From positions 1 through 40,386 of IMG/VR virus record IMGVR_UViG_3300030329_000760: a DNA stretch of 40,386 nucleotides, one strand, 5' to 3'. The stretch comes from a virus. Of the stretch, positions 101 through 40,386 are shown piece by piece; position 1 is the first letter of the stretch, and each line of letters begins with the position of its first letter. The notes under the pieces were generated by a model, which saw only the letters and a program-made list of their open reading frames with translations, did not search any database and was not told where the DNA came from. The translations under genes and the position numbers were made by a program.

Positions 101-446
101 TAACGCTGCCGTTGGCATTGCTAAGACAAAGACTATGGGAACTGCTCAAGGACTCGCTGGACTCGATGAGCGTGTTATTGATTTTGCTATCCAAGCAGAG
201 CAGGCCGCTGGAATTGATAGAGAAGTTCTGGATATGAAGATGGCATCTCTCAATGAGGCTGCGGGACAATCTACGCAAAGGTTCCAAACAGCCCTTGACC
301 AAGCTCGATCAGCCACAAGCCCTGAGGCATTCCTTGGACTTGGTATGAATCTCGCTGGCGGGTTCTTTGATTCGTATCGTATGTTCGGTGCGCTTCCCTT
401 CGAAGATCCTGCTAAGTATTCTAAGCGCATCACAGGAATTGCATAA
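1..446 (+). CDS. Internal virion protein, gp14-like (C-terminal part)
   Basis: This is the 3' part of a gene whose 5' part lies at the other end of the window. Joined, it encodes about 233 aa, close to T7 gp14 (196 aa). T7 gp14 is an internal core protein ejected at infection that forms a channel in the outer membrane. The visible part is alanine- and glutamine-rich and helical, typical of the family, with an N-terminal stretch of repeated A/K/E/Q residues. Identification rests mainly on gene order (after the gp13-like gene, before gp15- and gp16-like genes) and composition, not on a motif. Its TAA stop overlaps the ATG of the next gene by one base, so translation is probably coupled. Confidence 0.8.
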   Translation, partial: AAHKQWQAEQAQLGERARQEKLKSEIEHDQLARNAAVGIAKTKTMGTAQGLAGLDERVIDFAIQAEQAAGIDREVLDMKMASLNEAAGQSTQRFQTALDQARSATSPEAFLGLGMNLAGGFFDSYRMFGALPFEDPAKYSKRITGIA

Positions 447-3400
447 TGGCATCAGAATACAGACAACTCGGAACCGCTCGCTTCCAGCCGCAGCAGCAGA
501 TCGGTGGGTGGAATTACCAAGCTACTCGTGACCTAGGGTCTGAGCAACTCCTCAAGGGCTTTGCTAACCTCTCCCAGAGTCTTACTCAGGCTGGGCAGCA
601 GTATGGTCAGGAAGAAATCAAGAAGGCTGTAGCGGAAGGTGAAGCTTGGCGCAAGCAGTCACAGAAGACATTCCGTGATGCCGTTGCCGCTGGTGAGATA
701 CACCCGTCCCAGAACCCCCACTTTGCCATTGGGGCTATGGCAGCCGATGGTGAGATGAATGCCCGTGCCATGACGAGTCAGTGGCTTAGTGAGTGGCAGC
801 AGGAGACAGCAAACCCTGACAGCGAAGCCGCCCGGACACAGGGTGGGTTTGAGGCATTCATGCAGGATAGGCTTACAACTTATGCTGAAGAGAATCCGTT
901 TGTAAGTCAGTATCAGTCGAATGCTTTCTACGATATTGCCCACAGAACGATCACGGGTAATTCGGTAAAGCAAAACGAAGATGCCTTGGCGCGAGACTTA
1001 GCGCACACATCACGCAGGCACACTGACAGTCTTCTTAGTATTGAGTTTTCTGCCGATGCCCCTGACGAGTCGCAGGCTGAACTACAAACCGCATACGATA
1101 AGTTGTATGAATCGGGCGCACTGACTCCAGAATTCAAGGCGATGTTTCTTGAGAGGGTGTACTTGACAGCCCTAAGTCCTGACTTAGATGTACACCCTAA
1201 AGAATATGTCGAGCGTTATCGTGGCTTGATGCAGAACGGGGCATCGCTCGGAGAAACGGAGGCGGGGCTACAAGCCTCCGCTAAGTATCGGGCTGCACTA
1301 GATGTGGTATCAAACAAGTGGGAAGGAAAACGAACTGCCGAAATTGAGAGATCTCATGCCCGTGGCCTTGTGACCCACGAGGACTTTGAACCTATTTCAA
1401 AAACCCAAATGGGTCAGTTGGAGCAGGTCATTCTTGTAGGCGGGGATGTCGAGGCGAAGATAGCGGAGATCGTGGAAAGCCACCAAATAGCCGGGGCGGC
1501 TGTTCTCGCAAGATACGGAAAGGATAGCAAAGAGTGGTTTGAGTATAAAGATAATATGGAGGCCCTAGAGCTTAAGATTATCACGACCCGACAGGATACC
1601 GAAGTTGTCGGGGCGGTTCTTGGTTCTTTTGATAGCCTTAGCAGTAAGACAGACTATGAAGCTCTGGGGGATGAGGTTGGGAATACGGAAAGGAACAACT
1701 ACCTGTGGGACAAGCACAGGAACGATCCCCAAGCTCTTGCCCAAATCCTCCAGCACTCTAAGTTCCCGCCGCTAGAGCGTCACTTCCTCGACCACGGAGA
1801 CATGGTGCGCGACGGTTACCAGAAAAAAACCTGGGTTCCCAGCGATGTCCCTGCTTCTTTAGTAGAGAACTTCAAACTATACGCCCAGCTTCGTAGCCAC
1901 GCCGCTACCCAAGGAAATCTCTTCCACAACAAGGACAACCTTGTGTCTCAGGTCTACGAGGCTGCGTGGATGGAACTGGGAACGGACCATGACGAGACTT
2001 CATATGCTGTTGCCCTTGCCACGGCACTGGGAGGTGATGCCATTAGACTTCCCTCAACTGGGTCGGCATCGTCTGGATCTGCACAGTTAACGAATGCGGA
2101 TGAAAAGGCACTCGCCAATACGGTTCCGGGCTGGTTCAATCTTCCACAAAGCGCAAAAAGCCACATTATTGATAAGGTACGGGAGTTAGCTCCTAAGATG
2201 CCAGTAGTCTCTAAGGAGCAGTTTGCCGCAGCAGTTAAAGAACTAGAAGATGCCGATTTCTTTAAGAACTATACCGATCATTATTCCTTCTCTGAGTTCC
2301 CTGCTGGTGTCCTGCCCGTCGATGAAGGCAAGCAGGAACAATTTCTTGGAGACTGGATGCGTGGTTCGTTTGCATCCGCAGCCAACGAAAAATACATCCA
2401 AAACATTGGTGCCCAACTATACTCACCCGAGGCAAAGGAATCCCTCCGAGAAGCTATGGGCCTCCCATTTGGCACGCTGATCACCGACAGCATGATGGAT
2501 CGACACTTTGCATGGAAAGTTCTCGGTGGTCACGGCACAGTTCCCAGTGACATGAAAGACGCTGCATTCGGTAGAGTGACTGACGGGCTCAAGAAAGGCC
2601 CTGCTGGTCAGATATTCCGTATGCTTGGTACTAGTAATTGGTTCTTGGAAGGCATCGGAATGGACTTTGCGGAATGGCAAGACATCATACGCCTTGAGGA
2701 TGAAGAGCAGTCATTGGCGTGGGTGGCACAGAATAGGGATAGATTTACGGATGGTCTTGCTGGTTTCTTTCTGGGTGATGAGCCCATCAGCCTAGAGGGA
2801 ATCATGCACCGAGCCCCGGCTGAAGCTCTTACATATCTCCGGGAACAGGAGTGGTATCAGGGATCAGAGAGCGCGGCCCATCTTAGCGGATGGCTTGACC
2901 CGGATAATATCTACATCCAGTACACTCCGGACGGAGGTGCCATGGTCTACACTCGGGATGATGAAGACTCTCCTTTTGAACGATATATGCCACACGGAAG
3001 TGCAGGAGCTATCTCTGGATTCCTCACACCAGACATGATTTCAACAGAAGTTGATAGGTTCCTACAACATGACCGTGAGACGGGGGGAATGAGATTGATG
3101 GGAAGGCCCATATCCGATGAAAGGGTGCGTGAAATGAAACATGGTGTGTCAAGCAGTGCCGAGGAAGCTGACAAGGGTTTTAATTTGCTTTGGCAGGCTT
3201 TTGGCAAAGCCACTGGACTTGAAGTTGGCCCCGCAAACCCGATGCAAAAGATTGAATCTATTCAGAACTGGGCCACTATGATACCACTACGGACACACAA
3301 TGTTGTGTATGATGCTATTGTCCCTGAGGATTCGCGTGAGCGTACTTCGTACTATCACCTTAGAGAGACAGTCTCGGGCGTGGACCCCAGCACCACAATG

Positions 3401-4315
3401 GCTGGTCGTGCGGATACTATACCTCCGCTCTCCGAGGCTCATGCACGGGAAAAACTATTTAGCGAAGAAGTGGCAGATGCAGGTGGGGAAAAGCTACCCC
3501 CGTCAAAAGAAGTATGGAAGGCCGACACCCCGAGTGAAAAGTCTGATTTTCCTTTGTTTACCTACGCCAGCACAACAGATCAGAAGTTTAAGTTTGACGA
3601 TGGTATAACCCGACCGTTTTTAGACCATGTCATCGAGATGCGTAAAAAGTATCATATACCCTCTGTGGGTGAGATGAACCGATTCATGCGGAACAATGTT
3701 GAGCGCAACATTCGAGAAAAGGGTGGCAACCTTGTCATGGTAACCCACAAAAGTGGCTTTCAAAGTCTAGAGGTCCAGCAAGTTAAAACGCAGAGTGAGG
3801 TCGCACAGGTCCTGTATGGGTGGACTGCCGAGGAGTTTGCTGCATGGGAGAAGGCTGGAAATATTGTTCGTGGTTCTTGGGAGGAACAGATCGGAGGTGG
3901 GCCGTATGAACAAATGGGTGTGTTCACAAGCAACGAGATCGCAGCCCACGAACGCATCCGCAAACCCAAGAAGCTCTCTGTCCGTGAGCAAATGAAGATA
4001 CGCGATGAGCTTCGTGAGGTCGCCGTCGATCCGGGAATCATTGAGCGTGGTGCTGACTTTTACCGAACCGAGGCTGGAGTAGTTACGGGGCTAGATGATC
4101 GCCTCCATCTGATGGATGAGGGAGAAGTCCTCCCGGAGCAAGAGCCCCCGACAGATGCCGAGCTTCTCCGCCCAAGAACTCCCGAGCACAGCGATGCTGA
4201 CCATGCACTCAGGCGTCGTAGGTCAGGTGCGGAAGTGGCTGCCGAGGAAGTCGAGGCTGAGATTGAGGATCGTGAAAAGCGCATTGCTGAGGAAGAGAAG
4301 GCTAAGAAAAAATAA
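446..4315 (+). CDS. Internal virion protein, gp15-like
   Basis: This encodes a 1,289-aa protein, much longer than T7 gp15 (747 aa). T7 gp15 is an internal core protein ejected into the periplasm, where with gp16 it forms the DNA-translocating conduit. The N-terminus (MASEYRQLGTARFQPQQQ) resembles gp15-type starts: an unstructured Q-rich lead followed by helices. No enzyme motif was recognised in the extra length. The C-terminal 100 residues are highly charged (E/K/R-rich) and probably coiled coil. It starts one base inside the preceding stop and ends two bases before the gp16-like gene, consistent with one late transcript. Family assignment is from size class, helical composition and order. 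Confidence 0.8.
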   Translation: MASEYRQLGTARFQPQQQIGGWNYQATRDLGSEQLLKGFANLSQSLTQAGQQYGQEEIKKAVAEGEAWRKQSQKTFRDAVAAGEIHPSQNPHFAIGAMAADGEMNARAMTSQWLSEWQQETANPDSEAARTQGGFEAFMQDRLTTYAEENPFVSQYQSNAFYDIAHRTITGNSVKQNEDALARDLAHTSRRHTDSLLSIEFSADAPDESQAELQTAYDKLYESGALTPEFKAMFLERVYLTALSPDLDVHPKEYVERYRGLMQNGASLGETEAGLQASAKYRAALDVVSNKWEGKRTAEIERSHARGLVTHEDFEPISKTQMGQLEQVILVGGDVEAKIAEIVESHQIAGAAVLARYGKDSKEWFEYKDNMEALELKIITTRQDTEVVGAVLGSFDSLSSKTDYEALGDEVGNTERNNYLWDKHRNDPQALAQILQHSKFPPLERHFLDHGDMVRDGYQKKTWVPSDVPASLVENFKLYAQLRSHAATQGNLFHNKDNLVSQVYEAAWMELGTDHDETSYAVALATALGGDAIRLPSTGSASSGSAQLTNADEKALANTVPGWFNLPQSAKSHIIDKVRELAPKMPVVSKEQFAAAVKELEDADFFKNYTDHYSFSEFPAGVLPVDEGKQEQFLGDWMRGSFASAANEKYIQNIGAQLYSPEAKESLREAMGLPFGTLITDSMMDRHFAWKVLGGHGTVPSDMKDAAFGRVTDGLKKGPAGQIFRMLGTSNWFLEGIGMDFAEWQDIIRLEDEEQSLAWVAQNRDRFTDGLAGFFLGDEPISLEGIMHRAPAEALTYLREQEWYQGSESAAHLSGWLDPDNIYIQYTPDGGAMVYTRDDEDSPFERYMPHGSAGAISGFLTPDMISTEVDRFLQHDRETGGMRLMGRPISDERVREMKHGVSSSAEEADKGFNLLWQAFGKATGLEVGPANPMQKIESIQNWATMIPLRTHNVVYDAIVPEDSRERTSYYHLRETVSGVDPSTTMAGRADTIPPLSEAHAREKLFSEEVADAGGEKLPPSKEVWKADTPSEKSDFPLFTYASTTDQKFKFDDGITRPFLDHVIEMRKKYHIPSVGEMNRFMRNNVERNIREKGGNLVMVTHKSGFQSLEVQQVKTQSEVAQVLYGWTAEEFAAWEKAGNIVRGSWEEQIGGGPYEQMGVFTSNEIAAHERIRKPKKLSVREQMKIRDELREVAVDPGIIERGADFYRTEAGVVTGLDDRLHLMDEGEVLPEQEPPTDAELLRPRTPEHSDADHALRRRRSGAEVAAEEVEAEIEDREKRIAEEEKAKKK

Positions 4316-4317
4316 AT

Positions 4318-7300
4318 ATGGCACAAGATCCCCAAAGATCTCCGGTTCCCTTTGAGTTCCCGGAAGCCCCTTCTACGCAAGAAGTCTACGAGCGTAAAAA
4401 CCTCGCATCTGCGCGTAGAGATGAGGTAGCCGCAACGGGCTTTGGCGATCTTGTTTCCAATGCAATAAGCGAGACATGGGCTCTTGCTCCTTGGTTTGCT
4501 GAGTCTCATTCCACCAACTTTGAGTTTGAACCCGGATGGTCTCCAACACCCGAGGAGATTCTACATATTCAAAAGACCCTGCCCGAAGCGGTGTGGGATG
4601 ATGCGATATACGCCAAGAATGCAGAGCACTCTCTGGCAATCCAGCAAGATGTTCAGGACAGACAACAGATGCAAGGGCTTTTGGCTGAACGCTTTGGTCC
4701 CGTGAGTTTGGTTGGGAGCTACATTGCCGCTGGTATTCTTGATCCTGTCAACATTGCTATGATGGCAGCCTCTGGACCCCTATATACTTCAATCGCACAG
4801 TCAGGGAAGTTTGCAGCGGGTGCTCGGTTTCTTCGTACGGGTGCTCTAGCGGGAACTGAGGCTGTGTCATGGGCAGCGTTGCGTGCATCTGCCGGGGATG
4901 TTCTTCTCGATGAGTCAGACATCCTTACCATTGGAGGATTCGGTGCTGTCCTTGGTGGTGCCTTCGGGACAATCTTTGGTAAGTATGCTCCTGAAGTTGC
5001 TGACAAAGCCAATGCAATTAAGTTTGCTACGGATGGTGCAACAATCAGTGAAAAAGCATTCTTGGCAACGCGGCGGGGCTCAACGACGAGTACCGGGCAG
5101 AGAGGATGGCTAGTCCCGCGCCACTTAGATGACGAGCCTTTTATCAAGTTCCGTCCCCCCGCCCTGTATGATGAGAACCAGCGAGCTTACGGATATGTTT
5201 CGGTATTAGGTACTCCGGGTAGAGGCACCGTTGGGATCAACATTGCTAAGAGTCCGTTTGAAGAGATGTCGTTTTTGCAGGGCGGGATTGTCCAGTATAA
5301 AAATAAGAGCATCCGAATGGCTGGGCACATCGTCATGGAGGACGGTAATCTTGTTGTCAAGTTCAATGTAAACAGCATTCGCACGAAGGGTACGGTAGAC
5401 ATATTTGAGCTACGCAAAATTGAGGAGATGGTCAACAAGACAATGCGTGACTTCCTTGATGACATGGATGCTCATGGTCTTGGTGATTTCCTTCGTCGCA
5501 CGGGAGCAGATGATCCGACGCCCGGTCGCCCCGCCCCTCTCCTTCTAGAGGATCGTCCGACGCTTCGCCCTGAAGTTCTTCCTGACGAACCTCTCGCCAT
5601 GCTTCCTCGTGCTGGTCAGGTTCTTGATGGCGAAGGCAACGCTAGAATTCCGGGTGACTCTGCCATCACCATTGAAGCCCGTGTCGATAAGATGATCCAA
5701 GATCATGGGATAGAAGTTTTGGATCGTTTTGGCTTCCAGCAGATGGTCTACGCCCATCTCGACAGTCGGCAAGCTTTCATCAACATTCTTCGAGATATCT
5801 CTGAGAATCGTCACCTAGGAAAAGAGTTCATTGACAGCCTTGAAGACTTCCGTCCCCTAGCCAAGCTGCGTGCTGACGATCTTGAGAGGTCTGATGTTTT
5901 CTCATTGCTTAGGTGGACAAAGCACAAGCTGAGAGATTCCGTACACGCTTCGGCAGCAAAGCGGGAGGCTGCCCGAGTTATCGCTGATGTTCCTGCGGGA
6001 CAACACTTTAAGGGTGGTGTCCTTGAAGAAGCATACAGGATATCCCGAGATCCCAAAACAGATGTACACCTCGTCTGGATGTCCCCAGAGGAGTTCAGTG
6101 GCTTTGCATTGCCTCTTTCGCCCGGAGTCTTGGGGGATAAGGGGGAGTCCGTAGAGAGCCTTGTAGAGCTTCTGAAGGGCGGTACAAAGCTAGATGAAAT
6201 ACCCACGCTGACTATTGATCGTCCAATCACCCCGGCGAAGAAAGGGACATACGAAGTTCTTAGACACAATGGAAGACATCGAGCAGCGGCATTTAAGGAG
6301 TTAGGGATCACAGAGATACCAGTGCTACTTAAGGTGGATGTGGATCGAGACCCTCTGCTAGTGGGTCCCCTTAACTTAAAAGGATCTTCATTATCTAGCC
6401 TGCCGACACACAGACACACAGACACAGGAGACATAGAAATGAGCCTGCCGCTCGTCCTACGCAATCAGGTCAAAGATGAACAAAGGGCTGCTGAGGCTGT
6501 CGGACAAGTGTACAAAAAGTCGATCCCGCAGAGTGATCACCCTTTCCCTATTCGCCAGAGTCCCAGCATTACATTTGCCTCCATAGACGAAGCAACGGCG
6601 GCATTGAGGCGTGATGCAATCTTAGCCAAAGGACCTAAGCTTACGATCTCTGCCAGCAAGGCTTCCCCCAAAGCTACTGCCCCCAAAGCTACTGCCCCCA
6701 AAGCTGGGGAAAGCGCAGTGGTGTACCACGGTGGCAAAGGTCGTGTGGAGTTGACCCCCGAAAAACTTACGGATGGATTAGGAACCCATGTCGGCACAGA
6801 GAAAGCTGGGATCGAGCGGCTGCGAAACCTTGCCGAGAGGGGAGAAGATGTAAGTAAGCACCGAGTTCTAGCCTACGAGGTAACATATACAAAACCACTG
6901 GATATCGGGGAAGACCTTGGCGTCTGGACTGCCGATAAACTGGGCAAAAGACTAGTCCAGCTTGGTGTACTTACCGAGACTCAGATTAAAAAAATCCTAC
7001 AGAAAGAGGTCGTTGACCGAGTAAAAGTTGGGGCTATCCGCAAACTACTACTGGATAAAGATATCGATGCGCTCTCGTATATAAATAAAGCAGAGGATGC
7101 GGGGTCTCGGTCAAGCATTGTTTTAGATCCTGAGAAATCTTTAGTTGTCGTACGCGGACAAGCGAAAACGCGAAACATCCAACCACATCTTGGCGAAGCT
7201 GCTGCCCCCAAAGCTACTGCCTCTGAACTTTACTATCATGGAACAACGACCGATCTGGCTAACGCTATAAAGGCAGGTGGCGGTCTTCCCGGAAAAGGTG

Positions 7301-10300
7301 GGGATGTTTGGTTGTCACCGAGTAAACAGTTCGCCTCTGATTTTGTGATGAAACAACGCTTGGGCGGTATGCTTGGGGCAGAAGTAGACCCAAAAGATGT
7401 GACTGTTCTTTCCGTGAGGGCTACGCCAAAAAATATATTTGACTTCCGCCGTCCCGAGCACATTCGACGAATGTTAGCCGAAGAATTGCGAACGGTTGAG
7501 GAGCGAGTCGGACCCTCAAGTGTCCGAGATATCGTCCTTAAGACTGAGCGGGACAAGTTACAGGCACTTATTGACAGTAGCGATTCGCAGGTTCTAGCAC
7601 ATGGCAAAGAGAACTACGCAAGCTACGAGCGTGTTGGTGTTTACAGGGATATGATGCGTCGTGTAGGGTTTGATGCCTCGTATGAAATACAGGCTGATGC
7701 TCCGGGCGTGGTCAATCTTCGGTTGTTTGACCCGAGCAACCAATTAACGGCTGCCCCCAAAGCTCCCAGAAGAATCGCCACAGAGTACACGGCAACAATC
7801 TCTGATGATGCTCACAAGCTATTCAACAGGGAGAATGCTGACTTTAATTTCCCCATCCCCAAGGAAGTTCGTGTCAAAGTACGGGCAAAAGAAGAAGGAC
7901 TAAACGCGGAGGGAGGCAAGTACGATATGTATATGTGGGGCGAGGAGGTCCCGCTGTTTGCCAAAACCAAAAAGGAGTTGCGCGAAGAAATCCACACGGC
8001 CATGGAGACTCCTATACTGATTCCTAAATTGGCAAAGCACTTCCGTGAAGACAAGCTGATTGGCCCTGAGATTCCCGAAGTTCCTGCGTTGCTTGCCCTG
8101 TCGCGTGCTTCTCAGCCTGACGAATTGTCAGGGTTTACGACAATGCGTGGCAACAAGGAACTGACTAACGCCGAGATGCATAGACTTATCCACGCGTCTG
8201 ACCCAGCTCTTCGTCCCTATGGGGAGGTAATGACTTGGTATCACGGGACAAGAAACGAAGGCTTTGATTTACCTTCGGGGCAACCGGAACATAGCGGAGA
8301 TGTCTTTGCATCTCCCAACAGAGACTGGTCCGTTAAGTGGGCCAAAGTCCTGCCTACTTCTGACGATGTCCGCGTCATCGAAATGGTCATTACTCCAAAG
8401 AATGTTTTTGATGGTAATAATCCTGACCATGTCAGAAAATTCGTAGAGGCCCAACTTCCCCGTGCTCGTGCCGATGTCAAGAACATGGAGCGTAAACTTG
8501 CAGAGGCCGTGAAGGCTTCTGATCCGATGGCAGTCCTTCATCGAGACGCAGTGCAAGCATCTCAGAGCATCCTAGACCGTCTTCTTCGCTCGCTGGAGAG
8601 CGACGAAGCTCTTAGGAAATATGGTACTGAGAACCTTACCTGGTGGGGTGCCATTGAGGATGCACGGTCTCAAATTCATGCACTAGGTTTTGATGCTGCA
8701 TTTGAATCGGAGGCCGTTGGAGGTCTTACCGCACAGAACATTAGGTTGTTTGATCCTGAGAACCAGATCCATATAGCCAAGAAAGCGAAAGAGCCTTTGA
8801 TGCCTACAGAGCTAGTGGCTGTCAAGCAGGGACATCTCTTAAAGCTCGATGAACTTGAGACAATCATCAGCGTAGTCGAGACGAAGCATCCTGAGTACGC
8901 TCTGACTCCTGCGTGGCAGGGGTTCTTGGATTCTGTGGCAGGACATCGTCAGTCTGCACGCCGACCTCAATGGCACCGTAGCGTTGACCCCGAAGATATC
9001 ACGGTTGATATCCCCCCGATCAAGAAGCAACCGAAGAAGAAACCTTTCGAGGGTGTCAGCGAAGAGGATGCTGCCAAGTTCCGAGCGCAAGCTGCGAAGT
9101 TTGATGAGCTTGCCGAAGATCTCCAGCCCGGTGACCGCATCCTGCAAATCGGGGATGTGATCTTCATTCACAACGCACGCACTGGGCGGGGCATCAGCTT
9201 GCAGGATCTCGTTGATGAGATCAACAGGAGTGCTGACGATGTCGTTGCAGAGACCGCACGCCAAGAGAACCGAGTATTCAACCAGCGCAACCTCGATGCA
9301 TTCAGAAACGCAGCCTCTCGCGGTGGTGATGATGTAGCTAAGTTAGACTTCGATGCTCCGTTCAAAGAAGCTGGGGTACATGGTCCCACGCTTGGTGGTC
9401 CCGGTAATCGTGGTTGGAACAGCCGCAAGACGCAACTACAGAACACCATCAGTGATGCATTCAACTGGCTGGGGCTTCATGGCTTCGGTAACCAAGCGGG
9501 TGCGGAGACGAGGGCAGGGAAGATTGTCACCGTCATCGAGGATGTTGATAGTTGGCTAAGGCACGGTCTTGCTATTGATCGTGATAACCTAAGTGTCACG
9601 CTTGCAGCGAAGAACAGGAAAGCACACAAGAGTCTATATAAGGAGTGGGCATCAGAAACAAAGCAGTCTTGGCCCGACCGGGCCGTGGGAAGGGCAGAAG
9701 CGGATTTCCGTCGTGGGGTCGCACGCTTCTTACGCAACGACGAGCTACTCAGTGCAGATCCCAGCACCCTTAGTAAAGCTGACCAACTCCTACAGAAGGC
9801 AGCCCAGTCGTACTCAGACACTTACGCCGACATCCTTACATGGCTCGTTAAGCATGACCCCCTTGGTCCGTGGGCAGACATTGCCAAGAACAGGAACCGT
9901 AACTACTTCCCCCGCATCTGGAGCGAGAACGGACACGCTGCACTTGCGAGAGAGTTTGGTGAAGAGCAGGTACAGGAGCTTATTGCTACTGCTCTTAAGA
10001 ACGGTTCCGTGAACGGTGAAAGACCCATGAGCATGGGGCAGGCAATGCGCTTTGCTGAACTCTACATGAAGAAGGTTGGAGGAAATACCTTCCAGATGTC
10101 ATGGCTTAACCACCCCAAGTGGGGGCGTAAGGATCCCAAGGAATTCATGCAGATGCTCATGGATGAACTAGGCGTATCTCAGGATGAAGCCGCAAGGTTT
10201 ACGGCACTGTTCTCCACGAAGGTGGATGATGGCACGCACGGAAAGTACCGGGTGCGCCTTGATGAAACAACCTCAGTAACGCTGACAGCAAAGGACGGGA

Positions 10301-11793
10301 CTCAGCGCAGTGTTTCTTTTGATGAGTTGCTCAACAATGATGTCCGTACAGTCACCGATACCTACCTGCACAGCGTCCTGAGCGTCGCTGGAGAGCGCGA
10401 GATTATGCGTCTCTTCTCTAAGAAGCTTGGTGTCGAGGGAGTGTTGAACAGCATTGAAGATATCCGCCCCCACCTTATCGAGGACCTTGTCTCTAAGGGC
10501 GCAAAGCTACGGGATGCCGAGGAGATGTTTGACGATCTTGCCAGAGAGATCACGGGGACGCGCCACTCCGACTCAGTAGTGTACGCTAGGAATATGCGAG
10601 CACTCCGAGACGCTAACTATACTCTAGGTGCTGGCTCAGGATTTGGTCTGGCCGCATTAGGTGATGCCTTCAACTCATTTGCATCGCACGGTATTCGCAA
10701 TGCTCTTCAATCAATTGGTATTCTAAGGAAGATGACCAAGAGTGGCGCACGCTTGGACATTGACGATGACCTTAAATTCATCGCAGAGGCTGCCGCGCTT
10801 ACTGACAACAAGCTCAATGCAATGAAGATGAACCCGGTCATTGATGAGCTTGGGGATCTTGCTGGGACGGGTGGTAGAACAGCCAAGCTTCTGCGGCAGG
10901 CAGCCACAACGATGTCAGATGTCTCAGGTATCAACGCTGTCACAAAGTTTGGTGAGAACTTAGCCATGAAGGTTCACGCCCTCCAGTACATCCGCATGAT
11001 GTTGGATGGTGAAATGCCCAACAGCACACGCATGGCTCAGATGGGGTACACAGAGGAAGCATGGCTTCGTGATGCAGCATACATGAGAAGGTATGCCAAG
11101 CGATACATGGGCGAGGATGGTGTTGAGACCATCAAGCCTAACTTTGGAGAGTGGGACGATCAGACCGGGGTCCGTCGTTTTATTACTGCGATTGAATCCG
11201 AAGTCACCTCACAAGTTGTGCGTGCAGATATGAATGACCTGCCCCGCCTCGCGCACAAGAGCGGCTTTGCTCATGCAACCTTCCAAATGTTCTCCCAGTT
11301 CAGAAGCTTTGGGATCACAGCGAACAGGTCCATGCTGGTGAGGAATGTAAAAGCAAATGATGCAAGGGCTTACATTACTTTCCTGTCTGCAATGGCAGGT
11401 GGTGCTCTTGTCTACACAATCAAGCAACGATTGCGCCACGGAGATGACGAGGAAGCTTTCCAAGAGGCCATGGAGTGGGACAATCTTGTCCAAGGCTCTA
11501 TCTCAATGTCCGCTATCGGAGCCACTACCGAGCTTGGAGATGCCGCAAAGGCTTTGCTAACTGGTGAGGGCATGACGGGACACCGATTTACTCCCGGAGA
11601 GGCTCTGCTCGGTGACATCCCTACAGCACGCACAGCGGACGCTATCTTTAGATCTGCTGGATTACCCTTCAAGGTAATGAGGGGTGAAGAAATTTCGTCC
11701 GGGGACTACCGGGCACTCCGAGACATTAGTCTCATTGGTAACCATCCCGTAGTAAAGGTGGGCGCAAATGCCCTACAAACAAGTGAGAACTAA
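4318..11793 (+). CDS. gp16-like ejection protein with three ART-like domains
   Basis: This encodes 2,491 aa, against 1,318 in T7 gp16, the largest internal core protein, which enters the cell envelope during ejection. The C-terminal part (about 1560-2491) has the gp16-type helical body and end. The T7 N-terminal lytic transglycosylase domain is not recognisable. Residues about 583-680 look ParB-like (WMSPEEF, then HNGRHRAAAFKELG and IPV). Three ADP-ribosyltransferase-like modules of the phage polyvalent-protein kind follow. The first spans about 801-945 (YHGG near 802; Y921-I-N-K-A-E926-D-A-G-S930). The second spans about 970-1142 (YYHGT 972-976, GFDASYE ending E1123, RLFDPSNQ 1135-1142). The third spans about 1305-1485 (WYHGT 1307-1311, GFDAAFE ending E1463, RLFDPENQ). 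Modules 2 and 3 also share TPKN(I/V)FD and are clearly paralogous. Catalytic competence is inferred, not shown. An early-type RBS lies in frame at residue 708. Confidence 0.88.
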   Translation: MAQDPQRSPVPFEFPEAPSTQEVYERKNLASARRDEVAATGFGDLVSNAISETWALAPWFAESHSTNFEFEPGWSPTPEEILHIQKTLPEAVWDDAIYAKNAEHSLAIQQDVQDRQQMQGLLAERFGPVSLVGSYIAAGILDPVNIAMMAASGPLYTSIAQSGKFAAGARFLRTGALAGTEAVSWAALRASAGDVLLDESDILTIGGFGAVLGGAFGTIFGKYAPEVADKANAIKFATDGATISEKAFLATRRGSTTSTGQRGWLVPRHLDDEPFIKFRPPALYDENQRAYGYVSVLGTPGRGTVGINIAKSPFEEMSFLQGGIVQYKNKSIRMAGHIVMEDGNLVVKFNVNSIRTKGTVDIFELRKIEEMVNKTMRDFLDDMDAHGLGDFLRRTGADDPTPGRPAPLLLEDRPTLRPEVLPDEPLAMLPRAGQVLDGEGNARIPGDSAITIEARVDKMIQDHGIEVLDRFGFQQMVYAHLDSRQAFINILRDISENRHLGKEFIDSLEDFRPLAKLRADDLERSDVFSLLRWTKHKLRDSVHASAAKREAARVIADVPAGQHFKGGVLEEAYRISRDPKTDVHLVWMSPEEFSGFALPLSPGVLGDKGESVESLVELLKGGTKLDEIPTLTIDRPITPAKKGTYEVLRHNGRHRAAAFKELGITEIPVLLKVDVDRDPLLVGPLNLKGSSLSSLPTHRHTDTGDIEMSLPLVLRNQVKDEQRAAEAVGQVYKKSIPQSDHPFPIRQSPSITFASIDEATAALRRDAILAKGPKLTISASKASPKATAPKATAPKAGESAVVYHGGKGRVELTPEKLTDGLGTHVGTEKAGIERLRNLAERGEDVSKHRVLAYEVTYTKPLDIGEDLGVWTADKLGKRLVQLGVLTETQIKKILQKEVVDRVKVGAIRKLLLDKDIDALSYINKAEDAGSRSSIVLDPEKSLVVVRGQAKTRNIQPHLGEAAAPKATASELYYHGTTTDLANAIKAGGGLPGKGGDVWLSPSKQFASDFVMKQRLGGMLGAEVDPKDVTVLSVRATPKNIFDFRRPEHIRRMLAEELRTVEERVGPSSVRDIVLKTERDKLQALIDSSDSQVLAHGKENYASYERVGVYRDMMRRVGFDASYEIQADAPGVVNLRLFDPSNQLTAAPKAPRRIATEYTATISDDAHKLFNRENADFNFPIPKEVRVKVRAKEEGLNAEGGKYDMYMWGEEVPLFAKTKKELREEIHTAMETPILIPKLAKHFREDKLIGPEIPEVPALLALSRASQPDELSGFTTMRGNKELTNAEMHRLIHASDPALRPYGEVMTWYHGTRNEGFDLPSGQPEHSGDVFASPNRDWSVKWAKVLPTSDDVRVIEMVITPKNVFDGNNPDHVRKFVEAQLPRARADVKNMERKLAEAVKASDPMAVLHRDAVQASQSILDRLLRSLESDEALRKYGTENLTWWGAIEDARSQIHALGFDAAFESEAVGGLTAQNIRLFDPENQIHIAKKAKEPLMPTELVAVKQGHLLKLDELETIISVVETKHPEYALTPAWQGFLDSVAGHRQSARRPQWHRSVDPEDITVDIPPIKKQPKKKPFEGVSEEDAAKFRAQAAKFDELAEDLQPGDRILQIGDVIFIHNARTGRGISLQDLVDEINRSADDVVAETARQENRVFNQRNLDAFRNAASRGGDDVAKLDFDAPFKEAGVHGPTLGGPGNRGWNSRKTQLQNTISDAFNWLGLHGFGNQAGAETRAGKIVTVIEDVDSWLRHGLAIDRDNLSVTLAAKNRKAHKSLYKEWASETKQSWPDRAVGRAEADFRRGVARFLRNDELLSADPSTLSKADQLLQKAAQSYSDTYADILTWLVKHDPLGPWADIAKNRNRNYFPRIWSENGHAALAREFGEEQVQELIATALKNGSVNGERPMSMGQAMRFAELYMKKVGGNTFQMSWLNHPKWGRKDPKEFMQMLMDELGVSQDEAARFTALFSTKVDDGTHGKYRVRLDETTSVTLTAKDGTQRSVSFDELLNNDVRTVTDTYLHSVLSVAGEREIMRLFSKKLGVEGVLNSIEDIRPHLIEDLVSKGAKLRDAEEMFDDLAREITGTRHSDSVVYARNMRALRDANYTLGAGSGFGLAALGDAFNSFASHGIRNALQSIGILRKMTKSGARLDIDDDLKFIAEAAALTDNKLNAMKMNPVIDELGDLAGTGGRTAKLLRQAATTMSDVSGINAVTKFGENLAMKVHALQYIRMMLDGEMPNSTRMAQMGYTEEAWLRDAAYMRRYAKRYMGEDGVETIKPNFGEWDDQTGVRRFITAIESEVTSQVVRADMNDLPRLAHKSGFAHATFQMFSQFRSFGITANRSMLVRNVKANDARAYITFLSAMAGGALVYTIKQRLRHGDDEEAFQEAMEWDNLVQGSISMSAIGATTELGDAAKALLTGEGMTGHRFTPGEALLGDIPTARTADAIFRSAGLPFKVMRGEEISSGDYRALRDISLIGNHPVVKVGANALQTSEN
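6401..6441 (+). promoter_or_regulatory. Early-gene-type leader and RBS inside gp16 coding sequence
   Basis: A CA-repeat stretch leads into CACAGGAG, then eight bases, then an ATG (6439) in frame with the gp16-like gene at Met708. The leader of the - strand gene starting at 29279 reads almost the same: both have AGACACA followed by ACACAGGAGACA(T/C)AGA, two bases and ATG. The leaders before the genes starting at 29591 and 30069 are similar CA-rich sequences with AGGAGG or AGGA. In gp16 it is translated as low-complexity THRHTDTGD, unlike its surroundings. Two readings are possible: a functional internal start giving a product of about 1,784 aa, or a relic of a captured gene. Confidence 0.65.
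6663..6710 (+). repeat. Short direct-repeat linkers flanking ART-like modules
   Basis: A 15-base unit, actgcccccaaagct, occurs twice in tandem here after a diverged first copy, encoding repeated APKAT linkers just before the first ART-like module. Near-identical units recur at 7200-7220 (gctgcccccaaagct, between modules 1 and 2) and 7750-7765 (gctgcccccaaagct, after module 2). The same short DNA word at three module borders is what recombination between linkers or duplication of a cassette would leave. Confidence 0.85.
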
Positions 11794-11794
11794 C

Positions 11795-12106
11795 ATGAAA
11801 AAACTCCTCATCTACATTCCTGCGGCTACTGCCGCTTCGTGCATCCTCCCTGCCTGTGCAACTGTTGGTAAGCTTCTTCCCGGTGGGGAAGAGCAAGCCG
11901 CAGAGATGGGCGACTCTATGCTGGCGAATGCCCCGGCTCTCGCAGAGCAGGGCGGCATGATCACCACGATGATGACTGGTAACCCTGAGCTTGGTGGTGC
12001 TGTCACTGCCCTTCTTACTGGTGCTGCTGGTCTCTTCGCAGCGAAGAAGATCAAAGAGAAGAAGGCTGCTAAGGCTGCCGCAGCCAGCGAGGAAACTGCT
12101 GCGTGA
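11795..12106 (+). CDS. Small lipoprotein-like membrane protein
   Basis: The ATG two bases after the gp16-like stop gives 103 aa; an upstream in-frame ATG inside gp16 is less likely. The start MKKLLIYIPAATAASCILPAC is a lipoprotein signal: two Lys, a hydrophobic stretch, then lipobox-like ILPAC. A second hydrophobic segment, rich in Ala and Gly (about residues 64-82), is followed by a Lys/Ala-rich tail. It opens the lysis-side cluster and overlaps the next gene by four bases (GTGA). It may be part of the lysis system or an envelope-modifying protein; no family was recognised. Confidence 0.75.
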   Translation: MKKLLIYIPAATAASCILPACATVGKLLPGGEEQAAEMGDSMLANAPALAEQGGMITTMMTGNPELGGAVTALLTGAAGLFAAKKIKEKKAAKAAAASEETAA

Positions 12107-12672
12107 TTCGTATGCTTGAGCACAGTGCTGCCGCTCCCTTTGTAGAGAAGTGGCACTACTCTAAGTGCGTACCTAAAGGGTCAAACACCTATTTTGGGTG
12201 GTACGACAACGACTCGCTTTATGCCGTGGCCGACTATGGGATTGGTGTAAATCCCTACCAAGCCTCGTACTTTTCACGCCTCTTAGATGTAGAGATTGCG
12301 GACAATCAGTTGGTGGAGTTGAAGCGTTTGGTTCGTTGTGAGCCACAAAACGCGAAGCTTCCGCTGACTAAATTCCTATCACGGTGCCACCGCACTCTTA
12401 AAAAGAACGGTGTCCGACTTGTCGTATCATTTAGTGATCCGCAGTACGGACACAATGGTGGGATCTACCGAGCCGCAAACTTTACACACGCTGGACACAC
12501 TCAAGCAGAGTATCACACAATAGATGAGGATGGCAACATCCGCCACCGCAGATATGCCTATCGCTATGCTAAGAGAAAGGGCATCTCAACCTCCCAAGCT
12601 AGGGAAGAGTTGGGGCTTCAGAGAATTAAGACTCTTCCTAAAGACCGATGGTACATCTGGATAAACAAATGA
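12103..12672 (+). CDS. Mom-like DNA adenine modification protein
   Basis: This encodes 189 aa resembling phage Mu Mom, a GNAT-fold enzyme that converts adenine in DNA to an N6-modified form and so protects DNA from restriction. Family features in order: W17-H-Y-S-K followed by P24 and G26; the E72-L-K-R-L block; S109-F-S-D112-P-x-x-G116-H-x-G-G-I-Y122-R-A-x-N126-F; then a Tyr/Arg-rich tail (HRRYAYRYAKR). GTG at 12103 is chosen because GAGG lies about ten bases upstream and the start overlaps the previous stop; ATG at 12112 is the alternative. It lies between a lipoprotein gene and a spanin gene, so it is expected to be expressed late, as mom is in Mu. No com-like partner gene was identified next to it. 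Confidence 0.8.
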   Translation: MIRMLEHSAAAPFVEKWHYSKCVPKGSNTYFGWYDNDSLYAVADYGIGVNPYQASYFSRLLDVEIADNQLVELKRLVRCEPQNAKLPLTKFLSRCHRTLKKNGVRLVVSFSDPQYGHNGGIYRAANFTHAGHTQAEYHTIDEDGNIRHRRYAYRYAKRKGISTSQAREELGLQRIKTLPKDRWYIWINK

Positions 12673-26221: not shown

Positions 26222-26986
26222 TTAGTTTGCTAGGGCTACCTCATTAGCCAGAGTAAAGAGGTCAGAGTTTACCGTGTCGAGAGAATCTATAGCATTGATA
26301 GCACGCACTCGGCGCTGCTTTCCATTTGCTGAGGTAGCATGGTATCCACCACGCACCAGATATTCTTGTGTCCTATTGAAGACAGTCCATAGATCATGGC
26401 CCCTATCTTCTGCACGCTGTGGCATATCGAAGGCGATCAGTTCTCCCTCACTCATATGCTTAGATCGTAAGCGTGCAGCTTTATCATAGAAACTCATGCG
26501 ATCCTCGAAGGACATCTGCATATCTCCCCACATCATTGGGATTAGCACGGATCTTTTGACCTGCATCCCATAGCCTGCGATCATGTCAATCATATCTAAG
26601 GGATTCTGTGATAGCTCAGAGTCATGCCGCACACGCACAGTTCCATAGTCTTCTGTCTGCACAGTCAGACCATTACTACACACCAGCCTGAATAATCCAG
26701 CCTGTAATGTGAGAGAGCATGAACCATCGTGAGAATTAGTCACGATAATCTCAGGTGTATTATCACCTATTGCGTCCCCTCCCTCTGTATATCTCAGCAT
26801 ATGCTTACGATACAGGGGGTCTACATTCTTCCTAGAATTTACGGTGTGTCCGACCCGTGCATTCCACCCCATAGATCCTAGGATATCATGGATATCTTTG
26901 GTAGATATGTGGTTGTATCTCGTGGATACAGTAGGCGCTGAGTCTGTAGCTAACAGAGCAGGTACATTATATGTTGTGTTAATCAT
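26222..26986 (-). CDS. DUF932/DUF945-like protein
   Basis: This encodes 254 aa. Phrases typical of the family are present: TNSHDGSCSLTLQAGLFRLVCSNGL and, near the C-terminus, DLWTVFNRTQEYLVRGG (family pattern: N-R-x-Q-E-x-x-x-x-G-G). Such proteins are common on plasmids and phages, for instance E. coli YfjQ-type proteins, and lack an established biochemical role. It lies in the early half of the - strand arm, between the gp88-like gene and a 55-aa gene, so early host takeover or DNA-related function is plausible but not shown. Confidence 0.75.
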   Translation of the reverse strand: MINTTYNVPALLATDSAPTVSTRYNHISTKDIHDILGSMGWNARVGHTVNSRKNVDPLYRKHMLRYTEGGDAIGDNTPEIIVTNSHDGSCSLTLQAGLFRLVCSNGLTVQTEDYGTVRVRHDSELSQNPLDMIDMIAGYGMQVKRSVLIPMMWGDMQMSFEDRMSFYDKAARLRSKHMSEGELIAFDMPQRAEDRGHDLWTVFNRTQEYLVRGGYHATSANGKQRRVRAINAIDSLDTVNSDLFTLANEVALAN

Positions 26987-26994
26987 CTGGTTTC

Positions 26995-27687
26995 CTAGTG
27001 TTTGTGATAGCCTACCTTAGCAGCAGGCGTCCAGCATTTGCGGCAGTCACCGCACGAGTTATCCTGCTCAGGCGCAGGACATTCCTCATATTCCTCGTCG
27101 AAGTAATCGACAGTAGAATCTGAGAGACGGGGGTGCAGGATAGATATAGACGCTGGTCTTTTTCTTCCTACTTGATTCGCTGATAATCTGATGCAGATAT
27201 TATCAGGGATATGTGGGCTAGTGAATAGGTATTCTTTGACCATACCTATCTCTCTAGTGGGTAGCCAGAACTGTATCTCTGGTACACGGCGTGCAATCTT
27301 TACGATATCAGCGAGCATCTCGACTGACTGTATATCTCCAGAGTCTAGCCACCTGAAGTATCTCTTATCTTCTGGTAGTCCTAGATCTAGGTGACCCCGG
27401 AAGAACCGGACGAAATTATCTACCCATTTAGATCTAGTCTCTGCATTTGTGCTGAGTGTACTCAGTCTCCGAGTCTGCGCTGCCACTACATTAGGATAGT
27501 TATAGTTCCCCTTGTCTGCGTAGCAGTCAGAACATACGGTGCCTTTAGTAAATTTCAGGACAGCGCCTAGCTTGCAGTCATCAGAATTCAGGGACCATGA
27601 AAGCCACGGCATCTTGGATGCGTCACTCATTCCCCCTAGATTTTCGTCTGCGATTTCCTTCAGATATTTTTTAGTTAGTCTCTTCAT
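26995..27687 (-). CDS. Phage gp88-like cysteine-containing protein
   Basis: This encodes 230 aa. The sequence resembles a phage family often labelled gp88-like. Its features are SKMPWLSWSL, KGTVCSDCYADKGNYNYPNV, an AAQTRRL segment, KRYFRWLDSGDIQSVEML, and FWLPTREIGMVKEY, with a C-terminal cysteine cluster (C-P-A-P, then C-G-D-C-R-K-C). The cysteines may bind metal or an iron-sulfur cluster. No function is established for the family as far as I know. It overlaps the upstream gene by 17 bases. Confidence 0.65.
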   Translation of the reverse strand: MKRLTKKYLKEIADENLGGMSDASKMPWLSWSLNSDDCKLGAVLKFTKGTVCSDCYADKGNYNYPNVVAAQTRRLSTLSTNAETRSKWVDNFVRFFRGHLDLGLPEDKRYFRWLDSGDIQSVEMLADIVKIARRVPEIQFWLPTREIGMVKEYLFTSPHIPDNICIRLSANQVGRKRPASISILHPRLSDSTVDYFDEEYEECPAPEQDNSCGDCRKCWTPAAKVGYHKH

Positions 27688-39300: not shown

Positions 39301-39571
39301 AGTCCGTGGTCGTAATGTATTTGTTCGTGGTGGTCGGATGACCTACTCAAAGCTAAACACGCTTGCAATCGCTACAGACGCAAGCCGCACACAGACAATC
39401 TCTGCTGGTGGTACAGCATCCAAGAGCGGCGAAGAGTTCTTTGCCATACACCAGCACATCAATGACTTGAGCGTCACGCTCACGAATGACACACCTTGGC
39501 AATCTATGATCCAAGGGCTCACATATGATCTAAACATTCAAGAAGGGATGAACCAACCAGTATGGCGTTAA
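36329..39571 (+). CDS. Tail tubular protein B / nozzle (gp12-like)
   Basis: This encodes 1,080 aa against 794 for T7 gp12, which forms the tail nozzle. The N-terminus (VSNITAGVSTQEYSLRMDGQ, then CKRPNSQYL) is the classical gp12 start. Later family phrases include DRLGIYTENEITLSGTDDAFNFF, RKQLMIYG, and near the C-terminus GLTYDLNIQEGMNQPVWR. Part of the extra length is at residues about 471-580, an inserted beta-rich segment (VVGDTIEF, TTYYIVSANY, RYQISETKGGTPL) of the kind found repeatedly in phage tail proteins. No separate tail fibre gene is seen, so added domains here could contact the host. Confidence 0.92.
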   Translation: MASVSYPVSNITAGVSTQEYSLRMDGQASAQSNVLNSPRYGLCKRPNSQYLCLLEGDSNWAAPMMFPLVYGSAEKIYVSQDGVNPRVISASDGSIQPLCLFPSSSTVGSSAYAQYANAGTAAFPNKMKYVRVGDVTFVANTNVQPAMKSTAWAGYTNSSTSITQGDGAGTLTAGAITNDDVWAAWIKKIDPNVRAEYTIAWSQDVGGTVTEYSETVMRRKEDTEDNAAQDDYTTGDYTAVNALEDDSAANALHLAGKLAYQVGAVQTTGTSDWMMQATSLSPVSYASSSADKLADLRKGTSSIIGRYTNQEGDAPGTLTSVSASSSVANYKPKTNWKAGTELEDHIGMAWKTVDNIAELPPLSWVDHTLKVADEEENPFGFYMRFVSDAVTPTAYSHTKDSSNAYPVFDSSDSLTKSGHWEEHCGVGVLTDVDSTTMPHMVVRRPDGSFAFMEAQGSFVVNSATDGVVFTGNGSGDDDYFVVSNFDGGFNDGSPTTIPTGEVAPISASPLVVGDTIEFSLGTSGFPTADISVDTTYYIVSANYVSAAWRYQISETKGGTPLTWTGATAADCQVTLTTYKDLKYAPRQAGDDDTNALPDFFTNPIAGLCSYQDRLGIYTENEITLSGTDDAFNFFRSTVRDLLDSDRLKVRPSQADNESIQQIVPFKTGLIVITNRKQLMIYGQNGALAPSTVTVIEASSAETDIYTTPVVVNDSLYLAHSTTNGGGMYEMYPESQTGFAVRDVSQQIPGFLPEGPRSLQASSKHNMLFWLDDGTGQNAEAIDQENLYVYTWDVGGPKKQQSAWTKWEFNSNQSGAVPDYKIHNIMCLGDRLYMLVEIDSCVTLDYIDLDISTPQAIDTTTKAAFSTLLLDKLTPKSAFTQVISWVGGTKSQLDLPWEMPAVGDDGNIDDDIVIVVSNTTGSDIAPFDRNTTTIYDTSNSTITHNDHADEGRHQIFLNSVNISNTDLSVWVGFKYTMSHTLGSFSPVIGERAVRGRNVFVRGGRMTYSKLNTLAIATDASRTQTISAGGTASKSGEEFFAIHQHINDLSVTLTNDTPWQSMIQGLTYDLNIQEGMNQPVWR

Positions 39572-40029
39572 AGGCAGTAGTACGAGAGTCTGAGAAGGGG
39601 GACGGGTACGAACTCGGCCCGAACCTTCGTCAGGCTGATAAGGATGAGATCTTCGCCTGCACGGGCGTAGAGGATCCTGCACAGAACCTAGAGTCCGGGC
39701 TATGGCAAAGCGACACTTGCTGGACCGTGACACTGGACGAGGAGCCTATTGCTATCTTTGGCGTGACCAGTGATGAGGATGATACTGCTAATGTTTGGAT
39801 GCTTGGATCTGATAAGATCGAGGATATCCGCTGGCAGTTCCTGCGTGAGAGCAAGACATGGCTAAAGAAAATCTCGAAGGATTATGCTATGCTATGGGCC
39901 TTTGCTGATGCTCGCAACACCAAGCACACCGACTGGTACAAATGGCTTGGCTTTGAGATCGCTGGCACTAAACCATTTGGTCCTATGAATCTTCCCTTCC
40001 ATCGCATCGTGTATCTAACGGGAGAGTAA
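39562..40029 (+). CDS. Internal virion protein, gp13-like, GNAT-type fold
   Basis: This encodes 155 aa (T7 gp13 is 138). A GNAT-like alpha/beta pattern is visible: EPIAIFGVT strand, WMLGSDKI, then a YKWLGFEI strand end and HRIVYLTGE. The family counterpart in T7 is required for virion assembly or stability and is near-absent from mature particles. Acetyltransferase activity is not implied. It overlaps the end of the nozzle gene by ten bases and ends two bases before the gp14-like start. Confidence 0.75.
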   Translation: MALKAVVRESEKGDGYELGPNLRQADKDEIFACTGVEDPAQNLESGLWQSDTCWTVTLDEEPIAIFGVTSDEDDTANVWMLGSDKIEDIRWQFLRESKTWLKKISKDYAMLWAFADARNTKHTDWYKWLGFEIAGTKPFGPMNLPFHRIVYLTGE

Positions 40030-40030
40030 T

Positions 40031-40386
40031 ATGTGTTTCGGACCCTTTGCCACAATCGCTACAGCACTTAAGACTGCATCCGCAGCATCCGCAACCGCAG
40101 CAGTTCCGACAGCAGTGACCGCTATTGGTGCCCCGCTAGGCCCCGCCATGTCTCTCGCTTCCGGCGCATCCGCAGTATCCACAGCCCAACTAACGACTGC
40201 TCTTTCGTCGGCAGCTTGGATTAGCAGTGCCGTAGGCAATCTAGCTGGCTTTGCCGCAAATGTCAAGATGGCTAAGGCGATGGGGGAAGCCGCGCACAAG
40301 CAGTGGCAGGCAGAGCAGGCACAGTTGGGTGAAAGGGCTCGACAGGAAAAACTCAAATCCGAGATTGAGCACGACCAGTTAGCTAG
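40031..40386 (+). CDS. Internal virion protein, gp14-like (N-terminal part)
   Basis: This is the first 118 codons of the gene that continues at position 101 across the contig join; the joined product is about 233 aa. The start MCFGPFATIATALKTASAAS is followed by a long Ala/Ser/Gly-rich, moderately hydrophobic region that may insert in membranes, then a charged helix. This is compatible with T7 gp14, which forms the outer-membrane pore for DNA entry. In this copy codon 118-119 differs by one base from the left copy (Arg to Ser after the join). Confidence 0.8.
   Translation, partial: MCFGPFATIATALKTASAASATAAVPTAVTAIGAPLGPAMSLASGASAVSTAQLTTALSSAAWISSAVGNLAGFAANVKMAKAMGEAAHKQWQAEQAQLGERARQEKLKSEIEHDQLA
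40287..40386. repeat. Terminal overlap of the contig (right copy)
   Basis: This is the right copy of the 100-base overlap with the start of the window, 99 of 100 bases the same. The single difference is two bases from the end of the contig, which suggests a read error or a strain variant at the assembly edge. Confidence 0.9.

Follow-up and report, generated by a model that had tools for sequence, protein, structure and literature searches.

A T7-type ejection protein carrying a ParB-like domain, one ADP-ribosyltransferase module and two probable ones in a payload replaced between near relatives

We examined an entire virus record (IMG/VR IMGVR_UViG_3300030329_000760; 40,386 nucleotides, hereafter the window) and focused on its gp16-like gene, an open reading frame (ORF) at 4318–11793 on the plus strand, where all the features below lie unless stated otherwise. 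This gene, which encodes 2,491 residues, likely specifies a polyvalent ejection protein in which a T7 gp16 core and an N-terminal domain carry a ParB-like domain, one securely assigned ADP-ribosyltransferase (ART) module, and two probable ones. Unrelated effector domains (ParB-like and ART) and a gp16 core are thus found in a single ORF of the structural locus, which is the hallmark of polyvalent proteins. Near relatives retain the N terminus, the ParB-like domain, and the core but have a different sequence in place of the rest of the payload.

A sequence-only reading of the window had proposed a gp16-like ejection protein with nearly 1,200 extra residues in a T7-type phage, and this held. The match to phrog_342 (T7 gp16; E 3e-78) is limited to residues 1603–2470 (9124–11727), i.e., to profile positions 428–1206 and the C-terminal third of the protein. 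This channel/core region, which is 31–33% identical to that of relatives, is encoded 3′ of the gp15 position in the ejection operon, as in T7. We found no N-terminal lytic transglycosylase, since profile positions 1–427 of phrog_342 have no match and Pfam gave none either. The protein begins with a domain (residues 14–283; 4357–5166) common to the gp16 of the nearest relatives, with 30% identity to that of L088 (E 2e-22). For comparison, we took five named T7-like phages whose terminases are related to that of the window; their gp16 proteins are 1,210–1,334 residues long and lack any such insert. The surplus of about 1,200 residues is therefore real. We considered a gene fusion through assembly error unlikely because the frame is unbroken over 2,491 codons and the relatives share the layout. 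When the gp16 core was searched against the sequences of solved structures, the sole match was an irrelevant allophycocyanin. In Pelagibacter phage HTVC309P (L125, 30909–33386), the gp16 core is apparently split across two adjacent ORFs.

Within the extra residues, the same reading had placed three tandem ART-like modules, and the motifs by which it recognized them are present where it had placed them, far beyond chance. The protein has exactly three YHG(G/T) motifs (residues 803, 973, and 1308), against 0.011 expected from composition, and one Y-x-N-x-x-E-D-x-G-S (residue 921), against 4e-5. GFDA(S/A)(Y/F)E (residues 1117 and 1457) and RLFDPxNQ (residues 1135 and 1476) each occur twice, again far above chance. 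Modules 2 and 3, which also have TPKN(I/V)FD in common (residues 1036 and 1359), are homologous over ~190 residues, with 29% identity and a pairwise E of 3e-21. In contrast, module 1 gave no BLASTP alignment with either of them and has the motif frame alone in common. Three tandem copies are therefore present at the level of the family, not as recent duplicates, and a recent triplication of one module is ruled out by a divergence to 29% identity or less.

Module 1 (residues ~801–945; 6718–7152) is securely an ART, judging from sequence comparison and a predicted fold, and is homologous to members of the ART-PolyVal family. A tblastn search with this module found a stand-alone Variovorax plasmid protein with 36% identity (E 1e-6), which matches PF18760 (ART-PolyVal) with an E of 2.9e-5 and 25.3 of 31.2 bits, i.e., below the curated cut-off. 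PF18760 matches 7 of the 11 family members that we aligned, with a best E of 1.9e-20. Module 1 has a strand-1 His (His804) and, with Glu926 as a candidate for the strand-5 Asp/Glu, the motif Tyr921-x-Asn923-x-x-Glu926. The latter is common to 7 of the 11 aligned ARTs, and the combination of strand-1 His and Y-x-N-x-x-E is also seen in family members from Tenacibaculum phage pT24, Rctr197k, and Roseomonas. A model built from four ARTs, with the window and all Variovorax proteins left out, gave module 1 a score of 39.9 bits; a model built from nine ARTs, from which the two closest Variovorax homologues were left out while a third, distant Variovorax ART was kept, gave 55.4 bits. In both cases, 0 of 2,000 shuffles came near. 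An hhalign comparison of two profiles was not used since the same Variovorax protein is present in both, which inflates the result, and a c-di-GMP-motif match on module 1 was rejected (18.2 of 38 bits).

Structure prediction is consistent with this assignment. The AlphaFold model of module 1, obtained from three sequences, has a pLDDT of 68 and a pTM of 0.65. Its top Foldseek matches are the anti-CRISPR protein 6kyf, which we take to be an AcrIF11-type ART, the cyanophage A4 pre-ejectosome, and MbcT. Among the best 50 VIA matches, nearly all belong to the ART superfamily or are the A4 ejectosome domain, with Z scores of 4–7. The ART-fold match reaches a Z of 6.9 over 124 residues; since such Z scores are moderate, the claim that module 1 is an ART is carried by the sequence evidence.

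Modules 2 (residues ~971–1150; 7228–7767) and 3 (residues ~1306–1490; 8233–8787) are probably ART-like, judging from profile comparisons. Their joint profile matched the ART profile with a probability of 83.6–92.2%, whereas none of 300 column shuffles exceeded 17%, and the match spans strand 1 to strand 3 only, i.e., the N-terminal half. When scored alone against an independent ART model, module 3 reached 16.7 bits (0 of 2,000 shuffles) and module 2 reached 5.8 bits (2 of 2,000 shuffles). The strand-1 His by which Tox-ART-HYD2 is recognized is found in all three modules (His804, His974, and His1309).

Several findings weigh against this interpretation of the modules, and the original proposal stood in part. 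First, the strand-2 Tyr that also characterizes Tox-ART-HYD2 is kept in none of the modules, which have His824/Val825, Trp998, and Phe1330, respectively, at this position. However, this Tyr is not a strict test since RPP1, the prototype of the HYD clade, reads GLFFT at strand 2, i.e., has a Phe. Second, module 1 has Glu926 as a candidate acid, but no residue of modules 2 and 3 could be identified as the catalytic acid, the candidates there being Glu1123 and Glu1463, respectively, or a neighbour. Third, in Pfam, NCBIfam, and PHROGs scans, no module of the window scored above the threshold of any ART model, and none reached the curated cut-off of PF18760. Fourth, the predicted structure of module 2 is poor (pLDDT 57) and shows no clear fold match, with MbcT (Z 3.5) and Tpt1 (Z 3.4) listed among unrelated matches at noise level. 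Finally, our searches of viral contigs, phages, and 398 genomes gave no close homologues of modules 2 or 3: exact-peptide scans of viral contigs with module 3, modules 2 and 3, or the whole protein yielded no relatives, a GFDA-x16-FDPxNQ DNA pattern had zero matches, and no match was obtained when the two modules were run by tblastn against phages or searched together in the 398 genomes.

In another explanation, module 1 alone is, or was, an active ART while modules 2 and 3 have decayed or been repurposed for binding a target, NAD+, or a capsid partner. We regard this as quite possible, although we do not favour it. The lack of a Tyr among the strand-2 aromatic residues, the unassignable acid, and a profile match limited to the N-terminal half are what one would expect of such modules. 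On the other hand, both modules retain the His, GFDA..E, and LFDPxNQ despite an identity of 29%, which suggests a constrained site.

The insert also contains a domain of which the sequence-only reading was unaware. This ParB/sulfiredoxin-like domain (residues 564–679; 6007–6354), which contains GRHRAAAFKELGITEIPVLL, is 50–51% identical to that of relatives, has homologues in 22 further viral loci, and is the best-conserved part of a fast-evolving gp16-like protein. While the domain itself is real, its ParB name is weakly supported by profile matches, with an E of 0.18 for phrog_723 and of 0.089 for PF02195 in 1 of 10 homologues. In an unrelated giant protein at one of these loci (L103), a PF18760 ART above threshold (E 3e-10) adjoins a homologue of this domain, which is independent evidence that ART and ParB-like domain travel together. 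L103 (2–10819) encodes at least 3,606 residues of this separate polyvalent phage protein, which displays DUF7178, the PF18760 ART, and the ParB-like domain.

We compared the gene with that of three relatives (L006/L088, L007/L087, and L008/L086). In these nearest phages, the terminase is 90% identical, yet the gp16 cores are only 31–33% identical. L008/L086 ends within gp16, and readable inserts are therefore those of L006/L088 and L007/L087. The N terminus (30% identity), ParB-like domain (51%), and gp16 core are present in both, whereas the ARTs are absent, and another insert with a HELGH (zincin) motif occupies the same place. The payload is thus replaced between near relatives, which gives the ejection protein the look of a delivery vehicle with exchangeable cargo. 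In L088, the gp16-like protein (4595–12664; about 2,690 residues) has its HELGH at the position of the ART cargo and gives no Pfam match there; the motif suggests that this insert is a zincin metallopeptidase. A gp16-like protein that evolves fast next to a near-constant terminase, as seen with these three relatives, would be expected of cargo under conflict. This exchange also bears on the possibility that the capsid core uses the insert as a structural spacer or a packaging element, the ART folds being nonenzymatic relics. The ordered ART-like domain in the A4 pre-ejectosome is compatible with a structural part, but we find this unlikely since an unrelated sequence with a metallopeptidase motif at the same place in near relatives would be odd for a specific structural part, and the five named T7-like phages manage without such an insert.

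How might such a protein work? In the capsid core, T7 gp16 forms a tetramer, and at ejection it extends across the envelope as far as the cytoplasm (PMC11784390; PMC11440229). By analogy, a few copies of the gp16-like protein would be stored in the capsid core, leave it before the DNA, and enter the cytoplasm, and a handful of putative catalytic domains would thus arrive there first. Module 1, and perhaps modules 2 and 3, would then use NAD+ to ADP-ribosylate a host macromolecule before phage transcription starts. The likeliest target would be a protein, such as one involved in transcription, translation, or defence. By analogy with T4 Alt, we infer a role in which activity precedes phage gene expression. 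A bolder version, which we offer as a tentative idea, is that in this group of T7-like phages gp16 is an exchangeable vehicle from which the peptidoglycan-cutting end is gone and whose effector cassettes, swapped between conserved ends (three active ARTs in the window, a metallopeptidase in near relatives), act in the cytoplasm before phage transcription. A nucleic acid or nucleotide as the target, with an ART fold that works like DarT or KptA/RES and acts jointly with the ParB-like domain, seems improbable: the ParB-like domain does adjoin and module 2 weakly resembles RNA 2′-phosphotransferases (NF002014, E 0.038; Tpt1, Z 3.4), but the match to Tpt1 does not rise above noise and the family of module 1, ART-PolyVal, is predicted to modify proteins (PMC5512222).

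The genomic context is that of a T7-like phage. The contig ends are a 100-bp direct overlap with 99% identity (1–100 and 40287–40386), which indicates a genome closed at about 40.3 kb. The assembly is circularly permuted, and the ORF at the gp14 position runs across the contig join. The T7 order is kept, with portal, scaffold, capsid, two tail proteins, and an internal virion protein of phrog_308 (39562–40029, plus strand). The gene for the last precedes the ejection genes, on the other side of the join. The ORF at the gp14 position is followed by a 1,289-residue ORF (446–4315, plus strand), which ends 2 bp 5′ of the gp16-like gene and is, by position only, the probable gp15-position ejection protein; it has no significant family match in Pfam and PHROGs scans. 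Also encoded are a phage RNA polymerase, a primase-helicase, a DNA polymerase, an exonuclease, and a terminase whose relatives are those of T7-like phages. Shortly 3′ of the ejection genes, there is a gene for a Mom-family DNA modification protein (12103–12672; PF25680, E 6e-30), for which an antirestriction function is possible. Elsewhere, genes of the DUF932 (PF06067) and GP88 (PF17338) families, neither of which has an assigned role, adjoin on the minus strand (26222–27687).

Should effector enzymes indeed travel on gp16, T7-like phages would have a pretranscriptional arm like T4 Alt. T7 gp16 is, to our knowledge, the best-studied route of a short-tailed phage into the cytoplasm. Near relatives that differ in their cargo would offer a natural experiment on the purpose of the first proteins to enter the cell. 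With fixed ends, a variable middle, and ART modules in one chain, the idea is testable in a group where the structure of the channel is known from T7.

Much of this design has precedents of which the sequence-only reading was unaware, as it was of the exchange between near relatives. Polyvalent proteins with multiple ARTs, one with 12 copies, have been described (Iyer 2017, PMC5512222), as have ParB-like and zincin partner domains and N4-type ejected ART carriers (PMC5512222; PMC9503650). A role upon injection has been proposed for their ARTs, with T4 Alt as a model (PMC5512222). ARTs are found in only 3% of podoviruses (PMC9503650). The main text of PMC5512222 has no occurrence of gp16 or "internal virion," and in the open-access literature we found no account of 1) a T7 gp16 core as a carrier, 2) a single such protein with three ART-type modules, or 3) an exchange of cargo among closely related T7-like phages.

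A podophage ejection protein with an ART-like domain has in effect already been seen in cyanophage A4 (A-4L), in which A4L_27 (PDB 9k3a chain B) has such a domain inside the capsid. Residues 1419–1602 of this chain match the module 1 model (Z 6.6), and A4L_27 has YHGT at residue 1425 together with ART motifs. Unlike the window protein, A4L_27 has one ART-like domain, near its C terminus, belongs to another family (Saffermanviridae), and shows no detectable similarity to the gp16-like protein. In Anabaena phage A-4L (L122, 20116–25269), it is labelled just "tail protein," and its ART-like domain (residues ~1420–1610) is missed by Pfam. T4 Alt shares the concept of a virion-borne ART but is a separate head protein with an ART of another family. 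T7 gp16 (phrog_342) is alike in the C-terminal ~870 residues, gene order, and role as an ejection protein, whereas the window protein lacks a transglycosylase match and is longer by ~1,200 residues, among which are the ParB-like and ART domains. Close parallels are also found in Tox-ART-HYD2/ART-PolyVal polyvalent proteins such as the vRNAP of Roseovarius Plymouth podovirus 1, which are also large structural-locus proteins with ART copies and partner domains. Those described in PMC5512222 are predicted to be injected and have the YHGT...GxD frame in common with the window modules, while their carriers are N4 vRNAP, MuF, or DarB-type proteins rather than a T7 gp16 core. The arrangement in the window is the polyvalent-protein strategy (Iyer 2017) on a T7 gp16 chassis.

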